From the NCBI GenBank assembly GCA_013538715.1, contig JACAFH010000001.1, positions 124,001 to 188,000 on the forward strand: DNA of 64,000 nt. The letters run 5' to 3'. Numbering within the stretch: position 1 is the stretch's first letter; each line of letters opens with the position of its first letter. Position numbers and translations under genes: made by a program. The DNA is from Candidatus Nitrosothermus koennekei. Lineage in GTDB: Archaea; Thermoproteota; Nitrososphaeria; Nitrososphaerales; Nitrosocaldaceae. The notes under the pieces are model-generated. The model ran no database searches and was not told where the DNA came from. It saw only the letters and a list, made by a program, of their open reading frames with translations. Below are positions 52,305 through 64,000 of the stretch, in pieces.

Positions 52305-54713
52305 ATGAATTACAAGATACTGATAGCAGTTATGGTATTGCTAATACCAATGGCATATGCAGATGATCAATTAAAGCTTAAACAATTCACAATAGTAGCA
52401 GAGTTTAGTGCTAATAGTGATAGATGGTTAGTTAGTAGAGGAGATTACAGTAATGATGGTAAAAGCATTAATGATCTAAACTATGCTATATGGTTAAGTG
52501 ATGGGAAGATATATGCTGGATTTGAAGACTCTAATGGTAGAAATTATGTAGTAGGAACAACTAGCAGGTATAATGATGGAGTAAAGCATGTTGCTATCTT
52601 AACATATGATATGAAGTATCTTAAACTATATGTTGATGGGAAGTTCATAAAATCACGTTCTACTAAAGTAGTGCCAGATTACAATCATGATGCTATGTTA
52701 GTGATAGATGCTGATGTTAAGATATACAATAAAGCATTAACAGAGGAAGAGATAAAGAGTAATGTTAGTGATGGTTTAGTATATGTTAGCAATAAAACAC
52801 CAATAGCTAATGATCTTAACATAACTATAGATGAGGATAATAGTGTAGAGATTAGATTAGATGCTATAGATGATGATACTCTAACATATAAAATAGTAGA
52901 GCAACCTAAGAATGGAGTATTATCATTAAATAATGATGTTGCTATCTATACTCCTAATACTAATTATTATGGTGTAGATAGTTTTACTTATCAAGCATAT
53001 AATGGAAGTAATTATAGTAATATTGCTAGAGTTAGTATCAATATTAATGATATCAATGATGCACCAATAGCTAATGATGATTATTATAGCATAGATGAGG
53101 ATAGTATACTATCATTAGATATACTAGCAAATGATTATGATGTTGATAGTAATCTAACATATAAAATAGTAGAGCAACCTAAGAATGGAATTATTGAAGA
53201 TGATAGATACATTCCTAATACTAATTATTATGGTGTAGATAGTTTTACTTATCAAGCATATGATGGAAGTAATTATAGTAATATTGCTAGAGTTAGTATC
53301 AATATTAATGATGTTATAGATGTTAGAATCTTTAATGTTAAAGATTATGGAGCAATAGGCAATGGAGTTAATGATGATACTCAAGCAGTTAGAAATGCAA
53401 TAGAAGATGCTAATCAATATGATAGTGCAATTGTATACTTTCCTCAAGGAGAGTATGTAGTTAAAGAATGGAGTAATTATCCTAATATAATATTAGAAGG
53501 AGAGAATGCTAAGATAATAAGATACTTTAGTAATAAGATAGAGATGCCTATATCAAATATAACAGTAATAGATTTTGCTGATGCAATGCAAATAAGTGAT
53601 TTAAGAGGTATAGCAGTTGGATATAAGGATGTATTAATGTTACAAAAGAGTGGCACTGCATGGTCTGCAAAGAATCAACCCCCAATAGATGATGTATTAT
53701 CAGAGATAAAGAGTATGGGTATGAATATGATTAGAGCATACATATATTGGGAAGGATATTATTATGATAAAACAAGATTTGTACAAGGTTTGCAAGGATT
53801 GACAGAAGCTGCAGATAGGAATGGTATTGCAGTATTATATGATTATATGCAACAATGGCATTTAAGTAGTTATGTAAAGAGTGGTTCATCATATGGAGAT
53901 GGATTTCCGCATGAATGCTTAGCAATATTAGGAATACAAAAGGATAGTGAGTTAGATACTAGACAAAGTTATCTAAATAATAGAACTCCTAGAGATGTAT
54001 TTTGGAGTAACTTTACCGAAAATTATAGTTGCACTATAAATGGTATCAATAAACCAATATGGGAGCATATTAAAGATTATACTACTGTAGTAGTTAGCAT
54101 AACGAAAGATCATCCTAGCACTATAGGTTACGATATGCTTAATGAACCATTCTCTAATCATGTATTTACTATAGATGAGTTGAATGGATTAAGATCATAC
54201 TATAAAGAGATTGCATTACACATTAGAAGTTTAACAGATAAGAAGATATTCTTCCAACAATTCTTAAACTATGCAGAGAATTATAATTATGGAGTATATA
54301 AAAATAGAGGAGAGGCATTAGCTAGTTTAGCACCAAGATATGATAATGGTGCATTAATAGAGAATTTAGGATTTACATTCACATATTATGATGGTCCCAA
54401 TGTTACAGATAGAGCATGGCATAAAGCCTATCTTGATGATTTTAAGAAGTATATTGAGCCATTAGGTATACCAATATTTGTAAGCGAATGGAACACAGCT
54501 AAAAGTGCGTTTCCAGATAATTATCCATTTACTACTCAAGAGTGTATAAATTATATGCAATACTGGAAGAATAGTGGTTGGGGATGGAGTTATTGGAGCT
54601 ATAACCCTACTGATCATGGTATAAAAGACGCAAAATATAAAGATTTCATAAACACGAGAGAGAATAAGTCACAAAAACAGATACTAATAGATGCTATAAA
54701 CCAAATATACTAA
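52305..54713 (+). CDS. secreted multidomain GH5-type glycoside hydrolase
   Basis: 802 aa. Signal peptide 1-19 (ending AYA-DD). Residues 25-155 are a LamG/concanavalin-like domain (YAIWLSDGKIYAGFED, VKHVAILTYDMKYLKLYVDG). Residues 165-345 hold two Big_9/cadherin-like domains. Residues 345-410 resemble only the first turns of a pectate-lyase beta helix (DYGAIGNGVNDDTQAVRNAI, IVYFPQGEYVV). From about 435 follows a TIM barrel of the GH5 type: GMNMIRAYIYWEG, acid/base E614 in DMLNEPFS and nucleophile E728 in VSEWN. So it probably cleaves beta-linked polysaccharide outside the cell. Substrate not predictable. No C-terminal anchor. Repeats indicate recent duplication. Confidence 0.8.
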   Translation: MNYKILIAVMVLLIPMAYADDQLKLKQFTIVAEFSANSDRWLVSRGDYSNDGKSINDLNYAIWLSDGKIYAGFEDSNGRNYVVGTTSRYNDGVKHVAILTYDMKYLKLYVDGKFIKSRSTKVVPDYNHDAMLVIDADVKIYNKALTEEEIKSNVSDGLVYVSNKTPIANDLNITIDEDNSVEIRLDAIDDDTLTYKIVEQPKNGVLSLNNDVAIYTPNTNYYGVDSFTYQAYNGSNYSNIARVSININDINDAPIANDDYYSIDEDSILSLDILANDYDVDSNLTYKIVEQPKNGIIEDDRYIPNTNYYGVDSFTYQAYDGSNYSNIARVSININDVIDVRIFNVKDYGAIGNGVNDDTQAVRNAIEDANQYDSAIVYFPQGEYVVKEWSNYPNIILEGENAKIIRYFSNKIEMPISNITVIDFADAMQISDLRGIAVGYKDVLMLQKSGTAWSAKNQPPIDDVLSEIKSMGMNMIRAYIYWEGYYYDKTRFVQGLQGLTEAADRNGIAVLYDYMQQWHLSSYVKSGSSYGDGFPHECLAILGIQKDSELDTRQSYLNNRTPRDVFWSNFTENYSCTINGINKPIWEHIKDYTTVVVSITKDHPSTIGYDMLNEPFSNHVFTIDELNGLRSYYKEIALHIRSLTDKKIFFQQFLNYAENYNYGVYKNRGEALASLAPRYDNGALIENLGFTFTYYDGPNVTDRAWHKAYLDDFKKYIEPLGIPIFVSEWNTAKSAFPDNYPFTTQECINYMQYWKNSGWGWSYWSYNPTDHGIKDAKYKDFINTRENKSQKQILIDAINQIY
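52881..53313 (+). repeat. two near-identical domain repeats inside the GH5 gene
   Basis: Units at about 52881-53051 and 53154-53313 are nearly identical DNA; the second is 12 nt shorter near its middle. Both encode LTYKIVEQPKNG ... PNTNYYGVDSFTYQAY ... NIARVSININD. This marks a recent duplication or gene conversion of a Big_9-type domain. Confidence 0.9.
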
Positions 54714-54729
54714 TATTTTTATATATTTA

Positions 54730-56418
54730 TTATTGTGATAATCTAACTGTATGATGGTAAATACGACTATTACCTGTATTAATTAATAGGTTCTGATTGT
54801 TTGATACAGTATCTTCTACATTATTATACACTTCTTCAAGTCCATATTTATGTTTGAGGTTTAATAAATCTCCATCTGCAAATATATTAAAGTACTGTAT
54901 TTTATATAACATCTCATTCTCTATATATTGAGAGATTTTATCTTTACTAACACCGTCAAATAATTTATTCTCTATATCAAAGATTAAGGCGCGTTCTTTT
55001 ATGTAATTATCATTTATAGCCATTGTATATTTGTATACAAACGATGGCATAAGTATAGATATAACTCTATTTTTATTATCGTCATGAATAACTAAAGTGT
55101 TTATACCATAATATAAAGAAGGAGTAGCATACGTAGTAATATTTCTACTGTGCTTAGTGATAGGCAAAAGTATTAACGAACATACTACTAGTATAATAAA
55201 CGAAAACAGTAATAGTCTTTTCTTTCTATGATTATATATACTCATATATAATATTGGCATTATAAAAGCACTGTATGTTGTAATACGTAAGAATAGAAAT
55301 GGTGCTATAAAGGATGTTAGTGCAGCAGATATTACATAAGAAGATAATATTCCACTTGCTATCATTATAGGATAATTATTCCTCATTCTTCTTAATGAGT
55401 ATATAACTATTATTGTACTTATTATTAATATTAATATAGTACTAAACAAGAGGCGTAGATTTACAAAATATATGTAAGAAGGAGATGGAGAAGGTGTTAC
55501 TTTAATATTACTAAATTCTAGTAACTCATTTACATAACTACTATACGTATCAATCATATATGTAGCATTGGTTGTATAGATAGTTATCAGAGATAATGTT
55601 GATATTAAAACCATTATATTAAAGTAGCTTATTTTCGAATATTTTATATATAATAAGTGAAGTAATATAAGAAATATTATATTAATTACTATAAAGAAAG
55701 AGTTTGTAGGACTAGTTAGATTTATTGTTATTATAGATATAAATGATAATATTAGTAATTTATTATCGCGTTTATTTATAAACTTCATGATTGAGAATAA
55801 TAATAGCCCATACATTGCATATGCTAATATTTGTGGTGAAAAATCTGTAGGATGTGTAAACATAAATGATGTAAAAGCGATAGATGATAATAATGAGAAT
55901 CTACCAACTAACAGATTACTAGTAGCATAAACGGTTAGTGATATAATATTAATGATTAAAATTTCAAAGATATAGAAAAAAGTAAATGGTTCTATTCCTT
56001 GAATTAATAATGATATAGCCATGAAGATAAATACTAGAGGGAATCCAGATGAATATTCATATGAAGAGCTTAAATAGCCTCTATTTATTATAGGGAATGA
56101 TTCTGCACCATGAAGATATGTATCAATGAATGGAGGATATTCTGTTATAATAGTTGCTATTCCATCTGCATATAGATTTGTTAATATTATTAAAATAATA
56201 TCATACAGTTTTGATAGACCAAATTTTAATTGTAATATGATACTAAATATTAGGAATGAGATACCTATCCAGTATAAATAAGGGAGAGTTCTTACATAAT
56301 CAAAAGTATCGTTATATCCTGTAATTCTAACAGTTGTAGAAAGTATGAATAATATTATACTAATTGTTATTGTTGATATTATTAATCTTTTATCATTATT
56401 TAGCAATATACTTATCAT
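54730..56418 (-). CDS. polytopic membrane protein, possible GT-C glycosyltransferase
   Basis: 562 aa, about 11-13 membrane helices, with a non-membrane C-terminal domain of about 130 residues that contains DDNKNRVISILMPS and ends in a short beta region. The first external loop after helix 3 (YPPFIDTYLHGAESFPIIN) contains acidic residues, as in GT-C glycosyltransferases that use lipid-linked sugars, but no firm motif. Coupled by ATGA overlap with the sulfotransferase, so both probably act on the same glycan. Function inferred. Confidence 0.6.
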   Translation of the reverse strand: MISILLNNDKRLIISTITISIILFILSTTVRITGYNDTFDYVRTLPYLYWIGISFLIFSIILQLKFGLSKLYDIILIILTNLYADGIATIITEYPPFIDTYLHGAESFPIINRGYLSSSYEYSSGFPLVFIFMAISLLIQGIEPFTFFYIFEILIINIISLTVYATSNLLVGRFSLLSSIAFTSFMFTHPTDFSPQILAYAMYGLLLFSIMKFINKRDNKLLILSFISIITINLTSPTNSFFIVINIIFLILLHLLYIKYSKISYFNIMVLISTLSLITIYTTNATYMIDTYSSYVNELLEFSNIKVTPSPSPSYIYFVNLRLLFSTILILIISTIIVIYSLRRMRNNYPIMIASGILSSYVISAALTSFIAPFLFLRITTYSAFIMPILYMSIYNHRKKRLLLFSFIILVVCSLILLPITKHSRNITTYATPSLYYGINTLVIHDDNKNRVISILMPSFVYKYTMAINDNYIKERALIFDIENKLFDGVSKDKISQYIENEMLYKIQYFNIFADGDLLNLKHKYGLEEVYNNVEDTVSNNQNLLINTGNSRIYHHTVRLSQ

Positions 56419-57326
56419 GTCATCTTATCTATTTTATTTATACTTATACCTTTATTTTCGATAAATTCTAAAGTTTTTAGATAATCATCTTCTAGTATAT
56501 TTGCGATATTAGTTGGTATCATATTTATTAATTCTTTATGACTACTCTTAGCTTTCTTTTCTATAGTATTCTTGACAAATCTATATCTTACAGAATCTAT
56601 AACCTTCCTACTGAGCTTCTCTAACGATGAATTCTTACCTGCGTTAAGGATCTTCATAATTATATAATAAGTAACAAACATGCTATATCTATAAAGAGCA
56701 CTATCATTAGGTGTTACCATACTTGGATTTCTATATATAACTTGTATATTTATAGTCTCTAGATCAAGAAATTTAAATATTGAATTTAGTACCTCTTGAG
56801 GTTTATTTTTGAGTAGGTTATTTTCAATCACTATCATATTATCACCAAAAACTTTATAGTATTCACAAATTTTATCATACATAAGAAACGAATTCATCTC
56901 TGGTATAAAATATCTATCTATCCATATACTAAAGTCTTTAATCATATGTGTAAGATATGTATATAAATATGCGCTTACTAAGCGTTCTTTCTGATTTCTA
57001 ATACACATAAAGATCTTTGCGTGAGTATTAAACTCTTTAATTTTGTGCGCAATTATAGGATCATATGTATATGATGTAGAGCCATCTATTCTATATCTAT
57101 ACTTTGCAGCATCTTTATATAATAGAAGGTAAGATTTCATATCAAACTTACCCATGTTGTATCGTGTATTAAACCATGAGGGTAATCTATCATGTACTGT
57201 TAATGCATGAGGTTCCTTTTGCCATGGGGCAAATATAGATGTATGTTGTATTAAATAATCCACTAACGCTGTAGTTCCAGCCTTTGAGAAACCTACAACG
57301 AATAGATTTGGTTTCGTATCATTCAT
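56415..57326 (-). CDS. PAPS-dependent sulfotransferase
   Basis: 303 aa. The 5'-phosphosulfate-binding loop VVGFSKAGTTALVDYL opens the protein, and the 3'-phosphate-binding strand/helix FMCIRNQKERLVSAYLYTY lies near residues 105-125. This is the Sulfotransfer_1/3 fold used for carbohydrate or protein sulfation. No membrane segment. An acceptor on a surface glycan is suggested by the neighbouring membrane protein, glycosyltransferase and epimerase, but not proven. First gene of a two-gene unit. Confidence 0.85.
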   Translation of the reverse strand: MNDTKPNLFVVGFSKAGTTALVDYLIQHTSIFAPWQKEPHALTVHDRLPSWFNTRYNMGKFDMKSYLLLYKDAAKYRYRIDGSTSYTYDPIIAHKIKEFNTHAKIFMCIRNQKERLVSAYLYTYLTHMIKDFSIWIDRYFIPEMNSFLMYDKICEYYKVFGDNMIVIENNLLKNKPQEVLNSIFKFLDLETINIQVIYRNPSMVTPNDSALYRYSMFVTYYIIMKILNAGKNSSLEKLSRKVIDSVRYRFVKNTIEKKAKSSHKELINMIPTNIANILEDDYLKTLEFIENKGISINKIDKMT

Positions 57327-57424: not shown

Positions 57425-58456
57425 GTGGAGCACAAGTTTATTGATGATCTTTTGTATTCACAAATAGATTTTAATGAATATAATATAGCTATTATAGGTT
57501 TTGGTAAGATGGGCATACTTCATGCAGGAATTCTTAATCTGCTTAAACCTAATATAGTTAAATTTATTGTAGAGAAGAGTAAGTTAATAATTAAAGGTGG
57601 TTCATTACTTATCAAGAGTGTAAAGTTTGTTGAAGATCTAAATTCTCTTACTGATGTGAATGCTATATATATTACTACTCCCACTAATACTCATTATCCT
57701 CTAATTATGGATGCATTAAAGATGGGCATCAATTATATATTTGTAGAGAAACCTCCTGCACCTACATATGAAGAGACACTAAAGATTCTAGATCTACAAC
57801 CAAAGATAGTAATGGTTGGTTTACAAAAGAGATACTCTCTTCCTTTTAGACACGCTAAATTATTGTTGGATAATCATGTAGTAGGAGATATAGAAGGCAT
57901 AAGCGCCTATATCAGATCAGGAGATATATTGACACAAACAGATAGATTTGAAAGGGTTAAGAGAGGAGTTCTACTAGATCTTGGAATACATCTTGTAGAT
58001 CTATTGTGCTGGTTATTTGGTAAGATGGATATAAATTATGCTTCATATAAAAGTATGTATAGTGGTGTAGATGATTATTTTGATGCCGAATTATTATTTA
58101 ATAAATCTATAATTAAGATGAATGCAACATGGTCTGATAGTAATACTAGGATACCAACTACATATGTAGATGTAAAAGGCTCTAATGGATTTTTGAGAGT
58201 AACAGAGGATTATCTTAAGGTTGAATTAAAAGAAGCACATAGATTATTAAGCGATAATACTAAACTTGAGATGTATAAACCTAATTACTATCAAGGTTTT
58301 CCACCAGTTAACCTTGCAGATCCAGAATATACTATAGAGGATATGCATTTTCTTAATTGCTTAGAGAATAATAAAGAACCTATAACTAATCTTAATAAAG
58401 TTACGGAGAGTATGGAGTTGATAGAGAATTTATACAAAAGGGCTCAAAATGATTGA
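57425..58456 (+). CDS. Gfo/Idh/MocA-family oxidoreductase
   Basis: 343 aa. NAD(P)-binding IGFGKMGILHAGIL at about residues 25-38, EKPPAPTYEET with the conserved EKP, and GVLLDLGIHLVDLLCWLFG with the catalytic-site His. Acts on sugars or sugar nucleotides in general. The start is GTG at 57425. It is followed by the TIM-barrel-like gene with 8 nt overlap. Confidence 0.88.
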   Translation: MEHKFIDDLLYSQIDFNEYNIAIIGFGKMGILHAGILNLLKPNIVKFIVEKSKLIIKGGSLLIKSVKFVEDLNSLTDVNAIYITTPTNTHYPLIMDALKMGINYIFVEKPPAPTYEETLKILDLQPKIVMVGLQKRYSLPFRHAKLLLDNHVVGDIEGISAYIRSGDILTQTDRFERVKRGVLLDLGIHLVDLLCWLFGKMDINYASYKSMYSGVDDYFDAELLFNKSIIKMNATWSDSNTRIPTTYVDVKGSNGFLRVTEDYLKVELKEAHRLLSDNTKLEMYKPNYYQGFPPVNLADPEYTIEDMHFLNCLENNKEPITNLNKVTESMELIENLYKRAQND

Positions 58457-59309
58457 GATATTATTAGGCGATAATCCATTTATTGGAGTAAGTCACTTAT
58501 CACAAGATAAGGCAAGAGAAGAATCACGTGAATCTGTATTAGAGAATAAAGTTAAGGTTATAGAGGCAGCAATAAATGGAGGTGCAACGGGATTTACATT
58601 CTCTACTCATCCATTAAATCTAGAACTACTTCAGTATATTGCAAAGTATAGAAGGGAATTACTTGATAAACTAGATTATTACATACTAACTCCTTATGCT
58701 CAATCCTATGTTAGAACAGCAAACATTGCAGGTACACCAAATCTAATATCATCTATCATAAAAAGAATAAATCCATCAAGTCTTACAGCGTTTTTAACAT
58801 TAAATGTAAATAAATTATTAGGATTGTTTTTAGAGAGTGAGATCGAACCATATTTAAAAATATTACCAAAGAAAAGGATTAAATCGATCCTAATTCACGA
58901 AGTTATAACAGAACTCTTGATAGCATTTAATCTATATGATACTCTTAAGGAATTAGATAAGCATTTTACAAAAAAAGATATAGATTTTGGTGTAGAGAGC
59001 AGAAATATAAGCGCACTCGATCTATTTCTGAAGAATAATGGTCTTAATATAAAGTATGTTATGACACCATTTAACTGCATAGGATATCAGATGGCACGAG
59101 ATTTTACTTCTGCTATGAACGCAATAGATAATTTATCTAGAAAGAGTAAGATTATAGCAATAAGTATATTTGGAGCAGGTATTTTGAGTTTAGACGAAGT
59201 GATAGATTATCTCTCAAAACATAAGGATAAGATATATGCTATTACAACAGCCTCTACAAAAGCAGATGTTATATATAATAATTGTAGAAGGTTCTCTTCT
59301 TTAAATTAA
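58449..59309 (+). CDS. TIM-barrel-like protein of unknown function
   Basis: 286 aa. Starts EILLGDNPFIGVSHLSQDKARE; alternating strands and helices such as NGGATGFTFSTHP, YYILTPYAQSYV, SILIHEVI and IIAISIFGAGILS suggest an alpha/beta barrel like aldo-keto reductases, but no catalytic tetrad is certain. Coupled to the Gfo/Idh/MocA gene, so a joint sugar conversion is likely. Its last 4 nt overlap the end of the convergent glycosyltransferase gene. Confidence 0.65.
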   Translation: MIEILLGDNPFIGVSHLSQDKAREESRESVLENKVKVIEAAINGGATGFTFSTHPLNLELLQYIAKYRRELLDKLDYYILTPYAQSYVRTANIAGTPNLISSIIKRINPSSLTAFLTLNVNKLLGLFLESEIEPYLKILPKKRIKSILIHEVITELLIAFNLYDTLKELDKHFTKKDIDFGVESRNISALDLFLKNNGLNIKYVMTPFNCIGYQMARDFTSAMNAIDNLSRKSKIIAISIFGAGILSLDEVIDYLSKHKDKIYAITTASTKADVIYNNCRRFSSLN

Positions 59310-60439
59310 GCATTTCTCTTGACTTTTTCCCATTTACTCTGATTCCTACCCATTGCAAAATTTAGAATAGCTCTGAGTTGTGCATATTGTAAGTTTATAA
59401 ACATCCATATAGAGTTGAACATATTTCTTGCAGCTATAATTAATAATATAAATATTATTATAAATATATCTAGTATCATAGCATATCTAAAGACGATTAG
59501 GTCAATTATTATTAGTATTAATGAGACTAAGAGTAATAACGGAGAGATTATTATCATAAAGAAGTTAGATGGAAATACGTACAATCCAAATTTTCCATAC
59601 TTTGGATTAAATAGCATATCTATATTCTCTATAAGTATAATTATATGACCTTCTGCACGCCTGATCTTTTGTTTTAAAGAATCTGCTACACGTTCGTAAA
59701 ATATTGAAGAAGGATCATAACATACCTTATAACCTTGTCTCCTTATATGAATAGTCTGTATAGTTTCATCTCCATAATGATATGGTTCATATTGTCGTAT
59801 TAACGCTCTTCTATATGCAGAAAATGGATGCGCCATATATATAGAGTCTATATATGCTTCTGCCCTTTGGATTATATCTTGTATATCTCTATAACTGACT
59901 TCTTTAGAGTTATCAGAAGCTATCTTCATCTTACCAGTTACAGCACCTATAGAGGGGTTACTAAAATTTGATACAATATTAAGCAATGCATCTTTTTCAA
60001 GCACTATATCTGAATCTATCTTTACTATTATATCACCTTTACATTGTTCATATGCCTTGTTTAATGCTACTGCTAAACCTCTTCTTACATTATCATGTAT
60101 AAGCTTTATCGAGAGTTCTTTATGAACTTTCATAAATTCTTCTATTAATAAGGGCGTATTATCATTTGACGAATCAGTGATTATTATCTCCATCTTATCT
60201 ATTGGATATGTAAGATATAATAAACTTGATAATCTACTAGATATTATATCTTCTTCATTATATGTAGGAATAACTAGTGAGATAAACGGTAGTTCTGAAA
60301 TATTACTCCTAGTAACATATTTCTTACTATAAAAGAGTGATATGCTACCTATAATAACATAACAAAATATTAACACTATTAATGGACTATACAAAAGTAT
60401 AAACTTAGTATTAATTATGAATATGTCAATTATATTCAT
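59306..60439 (-). CDS. membrane-bound family 2 glycosyltransferase
   Basis: 377 aa. One N-terminal membrane helix (about 10-33), a GT-A domain with SLVIPTYNEEDIISSRL, IIITDSSNDNTP and metal-binding VKIDSDIVLEKDA, then two to three C-terminal membrane helices (about 290-345). Processive or lipid-linked polysaccharide synthases look like this. Acceptor unknown; lies among surface glycan genes. Confidence 0.87.
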   Translation of the reverse strand: MNIIDIFIINTKFILLYSPLIVLIFCYVIIGSISLFYSKKYVTRSNISELPFISLVIPTYNEEDIISSRLSSLLYLTYPIDKMEIIITDSSNDNTPLLIEEFMKVHKELSIKLIHDNVRRGLAVALNKAYEQCKGDIIVKIDSDIVLEKDALLNIVSNFSNPSIGAVTGKMKIASDNSKEVSYRDIQDIIQRAEAYIDSIYMAHPFSAYRRALIRQYEPYHYGDETIQTIHIRRQGYKVCYDPSSIFYERVADSLKQKIRRAEGHIIILIENIDMLFNPKYGKFGLYVFPSNFFMIIISPLLLLVSLILIIIDLIVFRYAMILDIFIIIFILLIIAARNMFNSIWMFINLQYAQLRAILNFAMGRNQSKWEKVKRNA

Positions 60440-60751
60440 ATATTGTTTATTATTAGCCTCACATTTATATTATTTCTTAGCAGCGATAAATATTAGGATT
60501 CCTTGTATTGATATTAATATTAAGGTTGCTAAAACCATATTGTCATGATACTATTAGAGAATTTCTGTTAGTAAAACTTGCTATATTTCTAACATTATAT
60601 AATATAAAGATCTTACTATTTAGCTATATTTCATGATTTGTAATAAAAATTACATATTATATATTGCACACATAATAGTATATATTATTTCGATCTCGAG
60701 ATGAACATTAATCTATAGTATATAGAACATAGAATAGTTTAATAACATGCT
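60440..60751. other. intergenic region with a possible micro-ORF
   Basis: 312 bp, AT-rich. On the minus strand, 60470-60538 encodes 22 residues (MVLATLILISIQGILIFIAA plus two lysines), a single-helix membrane peptide with a basic end. Composition alone makes such a frame possible by chance, so it is not called as a gene. TATA-like sequences before 60752 would serve the epimerase. Confidence 0.4.
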
Positions 60752-61705
60752 ATGAGGATTAAATGTCATTTGAGTGTATTAGTCACTGGCGGAGCAGGAT
60801 TTATAGGTAGTAGGCTAGTTATGAAATTACTGTCAGAAGGTACTGATGTTGATATTATAGATGATCTCAGTAGTGGTGATCCAAATTTTATAAGTTATAT
60901 AATTAAACAGCATTCAAACGTACGATTTTATAAACTTAATCTACTAGACAATATAGAACTAAAAGATTACGACATAGTTTACCATTTAGCAGCAAATCCA
61001 GAAGTTAGGATAGGAGTATCAGAGCCAAAGATACATGTAGAACAGAATATAATAGCGACATTTAAGCTATTAGAAGAGATTAGAAAGCATGATATAGAGA
61101 GAGTTGTATTTACATCATCATCAACTGTTTATGGAGACGCATTAATTATACCAACACCAGAAGACTATGCTCCATTAGAACCTATCTCTATATATGGTGC
61201 ATCAAAACTAGCATGTGAAGCCATCATAAGCTCTTATGCTCATACATATGGCTTAAAGGCTCTAATACTTAGATTAGCAAATATAATTGGTGAGAATAGT
61301 AATCATGGTGTTATAATAGATTTTATGAAGAGGTTGAAGAACAATCCTAAAAGATTAGAAGTACTAGGGGATGGAACCCAAAACAAATCGTATCTTTATG
61401 TTGAAGATTGCATAGATGCTATGCAGTACGCCATTAAAAGTAATAAAACCGTGGATTTCTTTAATATAGGCTCTGAAGATAGTATACTGGTATCTGATAT
61501 AGCAAAGATAGTAATAGAAGAATTAAGATTAAACAATACAGAGATAGTGTTTACTGGAGGCTATCAGGGTAGAGGATGGAAAGGTGACGTGAAGAATATG
61601 AGATTAGATGTAAGTAAAATTAAAGCATTAGGATGGAAACCTAACTATAATAGTTTAGAGGCTGTAAAGTACACAGTTAGAAGATTAGCAAAAAGTTTTA
61701 AATGA
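60752..61705 (+). CDS. NAD-dependent sugar-nucleotide epimerase/dehydratase
   Basis: 317 aa, extended short-chain dehydrogenase. NAD-binding VTGGAGFIGSRLVMKLL near residue 10, DIIDDLSSG, the VFTSSSTVYG stretch, catalytic Tyr/Lys in SIYGASKLACEA and LRLANIIG. UDP-glucose 4-epimerase is the nearest well-known type, but other epimerases are possible. Lies at the end of the surface glycan cluster. Confidence 0.88.
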   Translation: MRIKCHLSVLVTGGAGFIGSRLVMKLLSEGTDVDIIDDLSSGDPNFISYIIKQHSNVRFYKLNLLDNIELKDYDIVYHLAANPEVRIGVSEPKIHVEQNIIATFKLLEEIRKHDIERVVFTSSSTVYGDALIIPTPEDYAPLEPISIYGASKLACEAIISSYAHTYGLKALILRLANIIGENSNHGVIIDFMKRLKNNPKRLEVLGDGTQNKSYLYVEDCIDAMQYAIKSNKTVDFFNIGSEDSILVSDIAKIVIEELRLNNTEIVFTGGYQGRGWKGDVKNMRLDVSKIKALGWKPNYNSLEAVKYTVRRLAKSFK

Positions 61706-61788: not shown

Positions 61789-64000
61789 TTAGAGTTCACA
61801 AGAGATCTCTGTATCTGGATCACTTGAACAATTATCTATACCATTTCCTCCATCTATGTAATCATTGTATGTAACATTATCTAATACATTTAGAGCCGTA
61901 TCATTTCCATCATCTCCATACAAGTAATCTGTGCCAGCCTTTGCAAATAATCTATCATTCCCTGATCCTCCATAGAGAGTATCGTTACCTCCAATCGCAC
62001 CATATACTTGATCTCCATCATATAGTTTATCATCTCCAGCATCACCATACATTAGATCATTTCCAGCATCACCATAAAGAATATCTTTTCCACTTCCTCC
62101 ATGTATTTCATCATCACCATTTCCTCCCGAGAGGACTTCCTCTTCTATATCATTACTATTCTCTCCATATATCTTATCATTACCATCACCACCAATTAAT
62201 CTATCTACATCATCACCACCATGAAGTTCGTCATTTCCTATTCCGCCTAGTATATAGTCTTTACCTACTCCACCGTATACAATATCATTATTAGCATAAG
62301 CATCTACATAATCATCACCTTCTCCAGCATATACAGTATCATCACCTCTACCACTATAGATAGAATCATTACCACCACCACCACATATAATGTCATTTCC
62401 CGCATATCCATAAATAGTATCGTTTCCTCCTAAACCATCTATTACATCATTACCACTAGTGCCATTTATTACATCATCGCCATTAGTTCCTACTATAGTT
62501 GGATTAGCACATTCAGGTGAGGGGCCACCTCCACCACCTCCACCACCTCCACCACTACCATCATCTTCACAATTTACTTTATAATCAGGATCAGTTATGC
62601 ATGTATCTTTTATGAAATGATTTCCAGCATCAATCAAATCATTCTTTATTATTCCATCATTGCTATTGATCGTATCATCCTCATCCAAACCAATATGTAT
62701 ATCATTGTCAGCACCACCTGTTATATTGTCCTGGGAATCGCCTCCTGTCACTATATCATCCCCATCATTACCTTGTATAGTATCAGCACCACCATCACCC
62801 CATATTATATCATTACCTTCATTACCATATAGAGTATCTATTTGATGACCGCCTTGTATAAAGTCGTTACCTAAATTACCGTATATCGTATCGTCTCCCC
62901 ATGAACCTAATAATACATCATCTCCATTCTCTCCATATGCTACATCATTACCACTATCTCCAATGACATAATCTCTACCATTTCCTCCGTATATTGTATC
63001 ACTTGATGTAGTATCTATCACTATATCATCCCCATCGTTACCATATACAGTATCATTACCATCACCACTATAGATTATATCATTACCATCATCTCCACAT
63101 ACTATATCATCCCCAGCATTAGCATATATTATATCATCACCACCTAAAGCAACTATTACATCATTACCACTAGTTCCTACTATTACTTCGCTTTTAAATG
63201 TGCCTGTTATAGTTGGTGTAGCGCATAATGGAGATGGTGTAGTAGAACCATTAGATGGTCTCTGTGATGCACCCTCACAATTTATATCGTTATCTGGATT
63301 AGTTAAACATATGTCTTTACCATCTCCACCATCTACATTGTCATTATTTATTATATTATCTCTGCTTAAGATAACATCATTATCATTTTCTCCAAACATT
63401 TTATCATCCCCTGATTCTCCCATAAGCACATCATTACCATTTCCCCCATACAATGTGTCATCAATATCACCACCTTCTAGATAATCATCCCCATCCTCTC
63501 CATATAATTTGTCTATGCCAGCAGCACCTTTCAATACATCATTACCTAAACCACCATAGATTGTATCATCATTATCTAAACCATTAAGAGCATCATTACC
63601 TACACCTCCATAGATTGTATCTTTGCCTTCGCCTCCGTAAATCATATCATCTCCTCCCCCATCAAGATCATTCCCTGTATCACCATAGATTATATCATCG
63701 TCATCAAACTCATAAACTCCCCCATCTATGTAATCATTACCTAAACCACCATAGATTGTATCATCATTAGGTCCACCATTTATAAGATCATTACCATTTC
63801 CTCCATATAATGTATCAATACCATTACCACCAAATATTATATCTATTCCGTCATCTCCACATATTACATCATTACCGTCGTATCCATAAATAGTATCGTT
63901 TCCTCCTAAACCATCTATTACATCATTACCACTAGTGCCATTTATTACATCATCGCCATTAGTTCCTACTATAGTTGGATTAGCACATAATATATCAGCA
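61789..64000 (-). CDS. giant RTX-type calcium-binding repeat protein, 5' end outside window
   Basis: Partial: the frame stays open to the window edge, 737 codons visible. An ATG at 63645 lies inside a repeat and is not the start. Almost the whole visible part consists of nine-residue GGxGxDxhx repeats ([18 protein letters not shown]), which form parallel beta rolls that bind calcium. They group into three modules of about 220-240 residues, each opening CA(N/T)PTI(V/T)G and closing with a paired-cysteine motif ([36 protein letters not shown]). Linkers are Ser/Pro-rich and a run of ten glycines. Cysteines point to an extracellular location. Secretion signal and any catalytic domain are not visible. 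Confidence 0.85.
62405..62512 (-). repeat. 108-nt perfect direct repeat, downstream copy
   Basis: Identical base for base to 63881-63988, 1476 bp away in the same gene. It encodes the module opening [13 protein letters not shown] through NDTIYGY. The intermediate module opening near 63125-63230 is diverged, so copies one and three were homogenised recently. Confidence 0.95.
62525..62556 (-). repeat. trinucleotide repeat encoding polyglycine linker
   Basis: A run of CCA/CCT triplets on the plus strand, encoding ten glycines between the second and third RTX modules. Length variation by slippage would keep the frame. Confidence 0.85.
63881..63988 (-). repeat. 108-nt perfect direct repeat, upstream copy
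   Basis: Partner of the copy at 62405-62512. Its position at the window edge implies that further modules may follow upstream. Such identical tracts are a hazard for short-read assembly. Confidence 0.95.

Follow-up and report, generated by a model that had tools for sequence, protein, structure and literature searches.

A sulfotransferase gene coupled to that of a GT-C-like membrane protein in Candidatus Nitrosothermus koennekei, and a probable role of APS kinase in sulfation

Two minus-strand genes in the window (the whole stretch of 64,000 nucleotides of DNA analyzed here) share an ATGA stop-start overlap (56415..56418). The first gene of the pair encodes a PF00685 sulfotransferase of 303 amino acids (aa) (56415..57326), and the second encodes a polytopic membrane protein of 562 aa that appears to be a remote relative of PMT_2-type GT-C enzymes (54730..56418). 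At the junction, the minus strand reads AAG ATG ACA TGA, and the membrane-protein gene (ATG ATA AGT) begins within it. The operon proper consists of these two genes only, with the direct neighbors on either side lying on the opposite strand. On one side, tail-to-tail with the membrane-protein gene, is a plus-strand gene for a protein that looks secreted and contains LamG, Ig-like, and GH5 domains (52305..54713). On the other side are genes for a Gfo/Idh/MocA oxidoreductase recognized by Pfam (343 aa, 57425..58456, plus strand), a 286-aa protein without Pfam matches (58449..59309, plus strand), a GT2 glycosyltransferase (377 aa, 59306..60439, minus strand), and an NAD-dependent sugar epimerase/dehydratase (317 aa, 60752..61705, plus strand). 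The original prediction of a coupled pair with a large membrane-protein partner is thus confirmed for both open reading frames (ORFs), their strand, and their overlap, and a Kyte-Doolittle scan places 10 hydrophobic segments in the 562-aa partner. Of the glycan genes that it named as company, GT2, epimerase, and Gfo/Idh/MocA do adjoin the pair (57425-61705); the flippase (PF01943, 14541-16019) is about 39 kb away and outside the cluster. No APS kinase is present in the window glycan cluster.

The source contig (C9) of this heat-loving, ammonia-oxidizing hot-spring archaeon has a G+C content of 0.317 over 209.6 kb, close to the 31.9 to 33.1% given for Ca. Nitrosothermus in the available text of PMC7819960. 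Contigs referred to below as the host's own (C numbers without a genome label) belong to the same assembly as the window (genome G000, a Nitrosocaldaceae MAG). The 286-aa protein has a 28% identical relative on C6 (locus L011, 2-757), which is also in a glycan cluster. RTX-like repeat proteins, recognized by eye, are encoded in the window (61789-63999, running to C9:188071), at C9:226803-227699, and in locus L046 (16380-17102); one adjoins the window cluster, and one adjoins a sulfotransferase gene in Ca. Nitrosocaldus sp. SKYG19 (G002), a genome of the same family as the host and of a different genus.

By its sequence, the 303-aa protein belongs to the PF00685 sulfotransferases and retains the motifs for binding PAPS. 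It scored 41.3 bits against PF00685 (cutoff, 22), and its only Pfam matches were PF00685 and PF13469; a search of NCBIfam returned no matches for either protein of the pair. With phmmer, the single sequence matched the solved structure 3rnl (E = 5.5e-11), and a profile of eight relatives matched it more strongly (E = 3.4e-28), followed by heparan sulfate 3-O- and N-sulfotransferases (E = 1.7e-8 to 1e-5) and, more weakly, cytosolic sulfotransferases. Residues K15, G17, T18, E38, R110, and S118 are invariant in all eight aligned sulfotransferases. We take K-x-G-T to be the 5'-phosphosulfate loop and R...S to be the 3'-phosphate site, and the invariant residues presumably represent PAPS-binding and catalytic positions. 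In the alignment with 1zrh, the glutamate of a KEPH motif falls in the ENEVHFF region. The Kyte-Doolittle scan found no hydrophobic segment or anchor in this protein, and a structure model built on an alignment of three rows had a mean pLDDT of 48.6. Relatives were found in 14 of 151 genomes (own included), some of them weakly, and a genome-contig scan with the sulfotransferase as the query returned none.

For the 562-aa membrane protein, comparison of profiles was more informative than searches with single sequences. The protein had no match in Pfam or NCBIfam up to E = 0.1, a PDB profile search returned nothing up to E = 1, and none of 10 distant family members had a Pfam match at E <= 0.01. 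In contrast, a 20-row profile of the family aligned with a 22-row profile of PMT_2 (PF13231) over residues 76 to 267, with a score of 78.0 and a probability of 95.8%. E93 and D99 are invariant across the eight close family members, and the profile-profile alignment matches Asp99 to the aspartate of the Asp-Glu pair in PMT_2. Together with the many hydrophobic segments, an acidic residue in what would be an early outer loop accords with GT-C enzymes. Controls scored far lower: 20 block-shuffled PMT_2 alignments gave 17.3 to 30.8, reversed profiles gave 28.5 and 27.5, and seven flippases gave 11.6. The family profile combined the eight close rows with 12 of 30 distant loci, leaving out own or SKYG19 copies and partial matches (row L121 was shortened by a stop), and the PMT_2 profile took 22 of 30 loci. 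With the eight close rows alone, the score fell to 43.5 and the probability to 47.7%. Membrane proteins from the host's own contigs C21 and C23 reached 86 and 95% against the 562-aa family and were near zero against PMT_2. Taken at the profile level, these comparisons support a remote relation of the 562-aa protein to PMT_2-type GT-C glycosyltransferases. An AF2 model based on an alignment of two rows had a mean pLDDT of 37.

Four paralogs of the 562-aa protein are encoded on the host's own contigs C6, C12, and C15. Relatives were present in 4 of 151 genomes, own included (G000, G002, G007, and G133), the profile of the eight close members matched 26 of the 398 genomes searched from the phylum, and a genome-contig scan with a two-row alignment returned one named relative. 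Several of the distant loci adjoin genes that look by eye like glycosyltransferase genes.

The order of sulfotransferase followed by membrane protein recurs at three of the eight close membrane-protein loci: the window, own contig C15 (24-nucleotide gap), and SKYG19 (16-nucleotide overlap). At the other five (C6, C12, the first copy on C15, G007, and G133), no sulfotransferase gene lies directly upstream. The SKYG19 locus (contig C41, JANWZS010000008) carries on one strand genes for an exosortase (PF09721), an epimerase, a GT2 glycosyltransferase, a sulfotransferase, the membrane protein, and a second sulfotransferase. Compared with its window counterpart, the epimerase is 52% identical, GT2 38%, and the membrane protein 38.5%; the first and second sulfotransferases are 45 and 57% identical, respectively, to the window enzyme. 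Sulfotransferase genes are also found near APS kinase genes, at about 4 kb in G002 and, for two relatives in G046, at about 7 and 9 kb. In G046, a PF01663 protein adjoins the APS kinase, with genes between that by eye are sugar-nucleotide and flippase-like genes. In G029, genes for an ATP-sulfurylase-like protein, a PF01663-like protein (both by eye), and an APS kinase are adjacent, and two sulfotransferases are on another contig. G007 combines the membrane protein with PF01663 proteins and APS kinase in one locus; a relative of the window sulfotransferase was not found in that genome.

PAPS could be supplied by the host itself, whose genome encodes an ATP sulfurylase with CysH alongside and has seven APS-kinase matches, six of them full length. 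We fetched eight CysH loci (L175 to L182) out of 38 genomes with any CysH match, and all eight proteins contain both CCxxRKxxPL and SxGCxxCT. According to the available text of PMC3125206, both cysteine motifs occur in APS reductases and are absent from PAPS reductases, with one motif-bearing enzyme left undecided, and Fe-S CysH enzymes can be bifunctional, for example in B. subtilis (PMC6286981, available part). Because the APS-reductase motifs are present in all eight proteins, sulfate assimilation in this lineage probably bypasses PAPS. As a separate observation, CysH in L182 runs on, by eye, into an ATP-sulfurylase-like part.

The distribution of these genes was compared over 61 genomes, with strong matches defined as E <= 1e-15 for APS kinase and E <= 1e-30 for CysH and with genome sets read off the search lists by hand. 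APS kinase and CysH occurred independently (14 genomes with both, 15 with the kinase only, 15 with CysH only, and 17 with neither; P = 1), and G003 and G005 carry CysH with no APS-kinase match. APS kinase was present in six of the seven sulfotransferase genomes (Fisher P = 0.046, uncorrected, among genomes that are related and partly incomplete); this association is weak, because 23 of the 29 APS-kinase genomes are without a window-type sulfotransferase. Luo et al. 2021 assign CysC to assimilation and conclude that sulfate cannot be assimilated by members of Nitrosocaldaceae that lack it (PMC7819960, available text). The CysH motifs argue, at the sequence level, against the view that CysC loss abolishes sulfate assimilation, and the APS kinase, which in Nitrosocaldaceae lies in surface islands, probably feeds sulfation.

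The seven APS-kinase matches of the host genome (1.46 Mb) lie on contigs C6, C12, C13, C21, C22, and C23 (L011 to L016) and on C9 near 247.9 kb (L018); six of them are on short contigs, usually close to one end, and the set could represent either a repeated island or co-binned strain alleles. Full APS kinases on five short own contigs are 88 to 96% identical to one another at the protein level. On C6, C13, C21, and C22, a leaderless ORF, GH5-like or similar, lies head-to-head with the APS kinase, and on C23 the ORF facing the APS kinase, which is cut, is pectate-lyase-like; no leaderless GH5- or pectate-lyase-like ORF faces the APS kinase on C12. G001 and G002 show the same head-to-head arrangement; in G004, an APS kinase at a contig end adjoins a match to the N-terminal block of the leaderless ORFs. 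The leaderless ORFs (L011, 7417-8826; L012, 1579-2970; L014, 927-2306; L015, 1917-3230; L016, 235-2007; L017, 2137-3453; and L046, 11442-13277) are mostly GH5- or pectate-lyase-like and, by eye, start inside a truncated Ig-like fold without a signal peptide. Their N-terminal block is found in G001 to G005, all of the same family, with G003 and G005 matching weakly and having shorter ORFs. The one candidate for a full-length version with a signal peptide, a C10 match (E = 0.013) within a 1,414-aa protein that by eye is subtilase-like, was unconvincing and was rejected.

In the single-contig genome G001, the island (L045, C1:510001-530000) has a G+C content of 0.25 to 0.39 per kb, compared with 0.424 at the CysH locus, which suggests acquisition from a low-GC lineage. 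We did not adopt amplification within one genome as the origin of the host's APS-kinase copies, because C12 and C22 begin at the same aligned base, next to the APS kinase; because a single copy is present in each of G001, G002, and G004; and because the C13 island genes are 90 to 94% identical to those of G001 at the DNA level (CysH, 77.6%). The extra copies may be co-binned strain variants, and the island pattern is compatible with such variants as well as with horizontal exchange.

We consider it reasonably likely that the window pair forms an operon with coupled translation that takes part in assembling a surface glycan, with sulfation fed by APS kinase. With PAPS as the donor, a cytosolic sulfotransferase would sulfate a sugar on a lipid-linked glycan or on a precursor of it, which would be made with the neighboring epimerase, Gfo/Idh, and GT2 enzymes, and the GT-C-like protein would then pass the lipid-linked sugar or glycan to a surface polymer or glycoprotein at the outer face of the membrane. 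APS kinase in this lineage would serve mainly sulfation, because CysH resembles APS reductase and PAPS would not be needed for assimilation. The original prediction of a sulfated surface glycan system, which staked itself on PAPS synthesis and on the fold of the membrane protein, is partly supported by the ATP sulfurylase and APS kinases, by the profile link between the partner and GT-C enzymes (the AF2 model being of low confidence), and by the glycan genes and gene order shared with a second genus; its flippase does not belong to the cluster.

Other acceptors and other roles for these proteins deserve consideration. The sulfotransferase might act on a membrane lipid, a small metabolite, or a protein and be linked to the membrane protein merely by a shared operon. 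PF00685 does include alcohol, phenol, and steroid enzymes, and such chains match the family profile; they do so more weakly than the heparan sulfate sulfotransferases, which are the best solved matches after 3rnl, and the order of sulfotransferase and membrane protein at three places, accompanied by GT2 and epimerase in another genus, also makes a non-glycan acceptor improbable. It is unlikely as well, if less so, that the membrane protein acts as a polymerase of the Wzy/EpsG type or as a polymer ligase instead of a transferase of single lipid-linked sugars: EpsG is matched weakly, below the cutoff, in the C-terminal halves of the paralogs on C6 and C12 (E = 7e-4 and 2.7e-3), but the window protein has none, and it is the N-terminal half that matches PMT_2 against the controls.

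A further reading concerns APS kinase, which may serve sulfate assimilation through a CysH that uses PAPS, with sulfation as a side use. This is the published interpretation of Nitrosocaldaceae genomes (PMC7819960, available text), and it is compatible with the presence of sat, CysH, and APS kinases in the host genome. We give it only a modest chance, given the APS-reductase motifs in every CysH fetched, the two genomes with CysH and no APS-kinase match, and the independent occurrence of the two genes. Extending our preferred reading, in which APS kinase feeds sulfation, we tentatively propose, as possible rather than probable, that APS kinase in Nitrosocaldaceae, rather than serving assimilation, provides PAPS for a hypervariable surface island, spread by horizontal exchange, that gives rise to strain-variable sulfated coats, like serotypes. 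In such an island, GT-C-like proteins and sulfotransferases would accompany an APS kinase that faces leaderless cassettes of the GH5- or pectate-lyase-like kind head-to-head.

If real, a sulfated coat would change the charge of the cell surface and the way in which metals and viruses attach to it. The CysH motifs render testable the published claim that Nitrosocaldaceae without CysC are unable to assimilate sulfate (PMC7819960, available text). In the literature searched, we came across no description of sulfated glycans in Nitrososphaerota, and sulfotransferase was never combined with Nitrosocaldus or with Thaumarchaeota and glycosylation; its combination with ammonia-oxidizing archaea (AOA) occurred in four papers. 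The word "sulfated" does not occur in the available part of a 2025 N-glycan paper (PMC12153357), and the available parts of PMC5797428 and PMC12448741 contain nothing on sulfotransferases. As far as the available sources go, sulfotransferases in exopolysaccharide (EPS) clusters of AOA are already known, as is the sulfation of glycans in archaea by enzymes of a different type; new within the literature searched are the recurring pair of sulfotransferase and GT-C-like protein and the argument that the APS kinase of this lineage feeds sulfation.

Each component has a better-known counterpart. The membrane protein resembles PMT_2 GT-C enzymes over residues 76 to 267, including the alignment of Asp99 with the first residue of the DE pair, but its family is divergent, present in 26 of the 398 genomes searched from the phylum, and without Pfam matches for single sequences. 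The window sulfotransferase shares the family profile, the phosphate-binding motifs, and a KEPH-type glutamate with heparan sulfate sulfotransferases and 3rnl, whereas it is archaeal, lacks a hydrophobic anchor, and is encoded by a gene overlapping that of its GT-C-like partner. In Nitrososphaera viennensis, a sulfotransferase is among the EPS genes up-regulated on air-exposed filters; unlike at the window locus, a paired GT-C gene or a dedicated PAPS supply is not described in the available text (PMC11561398). Agl30 and Agl31 of Halobacterium salinarum are glycan sulfotransferases inside a glycosylation gene cluster (PMC11980604, available text), an archaeal precedent for what we propose for the window pair. 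Agl30/31 carry an alkaline-phosphatase/sulfatase-type annotation in the same source, whereas the window enzyme belongs to PF00685 and has no such superfamily domain. PF01663 proteins of the alkaline-phosphatase superfamily are encoded near ATP sulfurylase or APS kinase in L049 (4560-7775, own contig C29), L046 (8287-9702), and L083 (5328-6764). Because Agl30/31 are of a related type, these proteins may, by analogy, represent a second kind of sulfotransferase, one nearer in kind to the Halobacterium enzymes than the window enzyme is.
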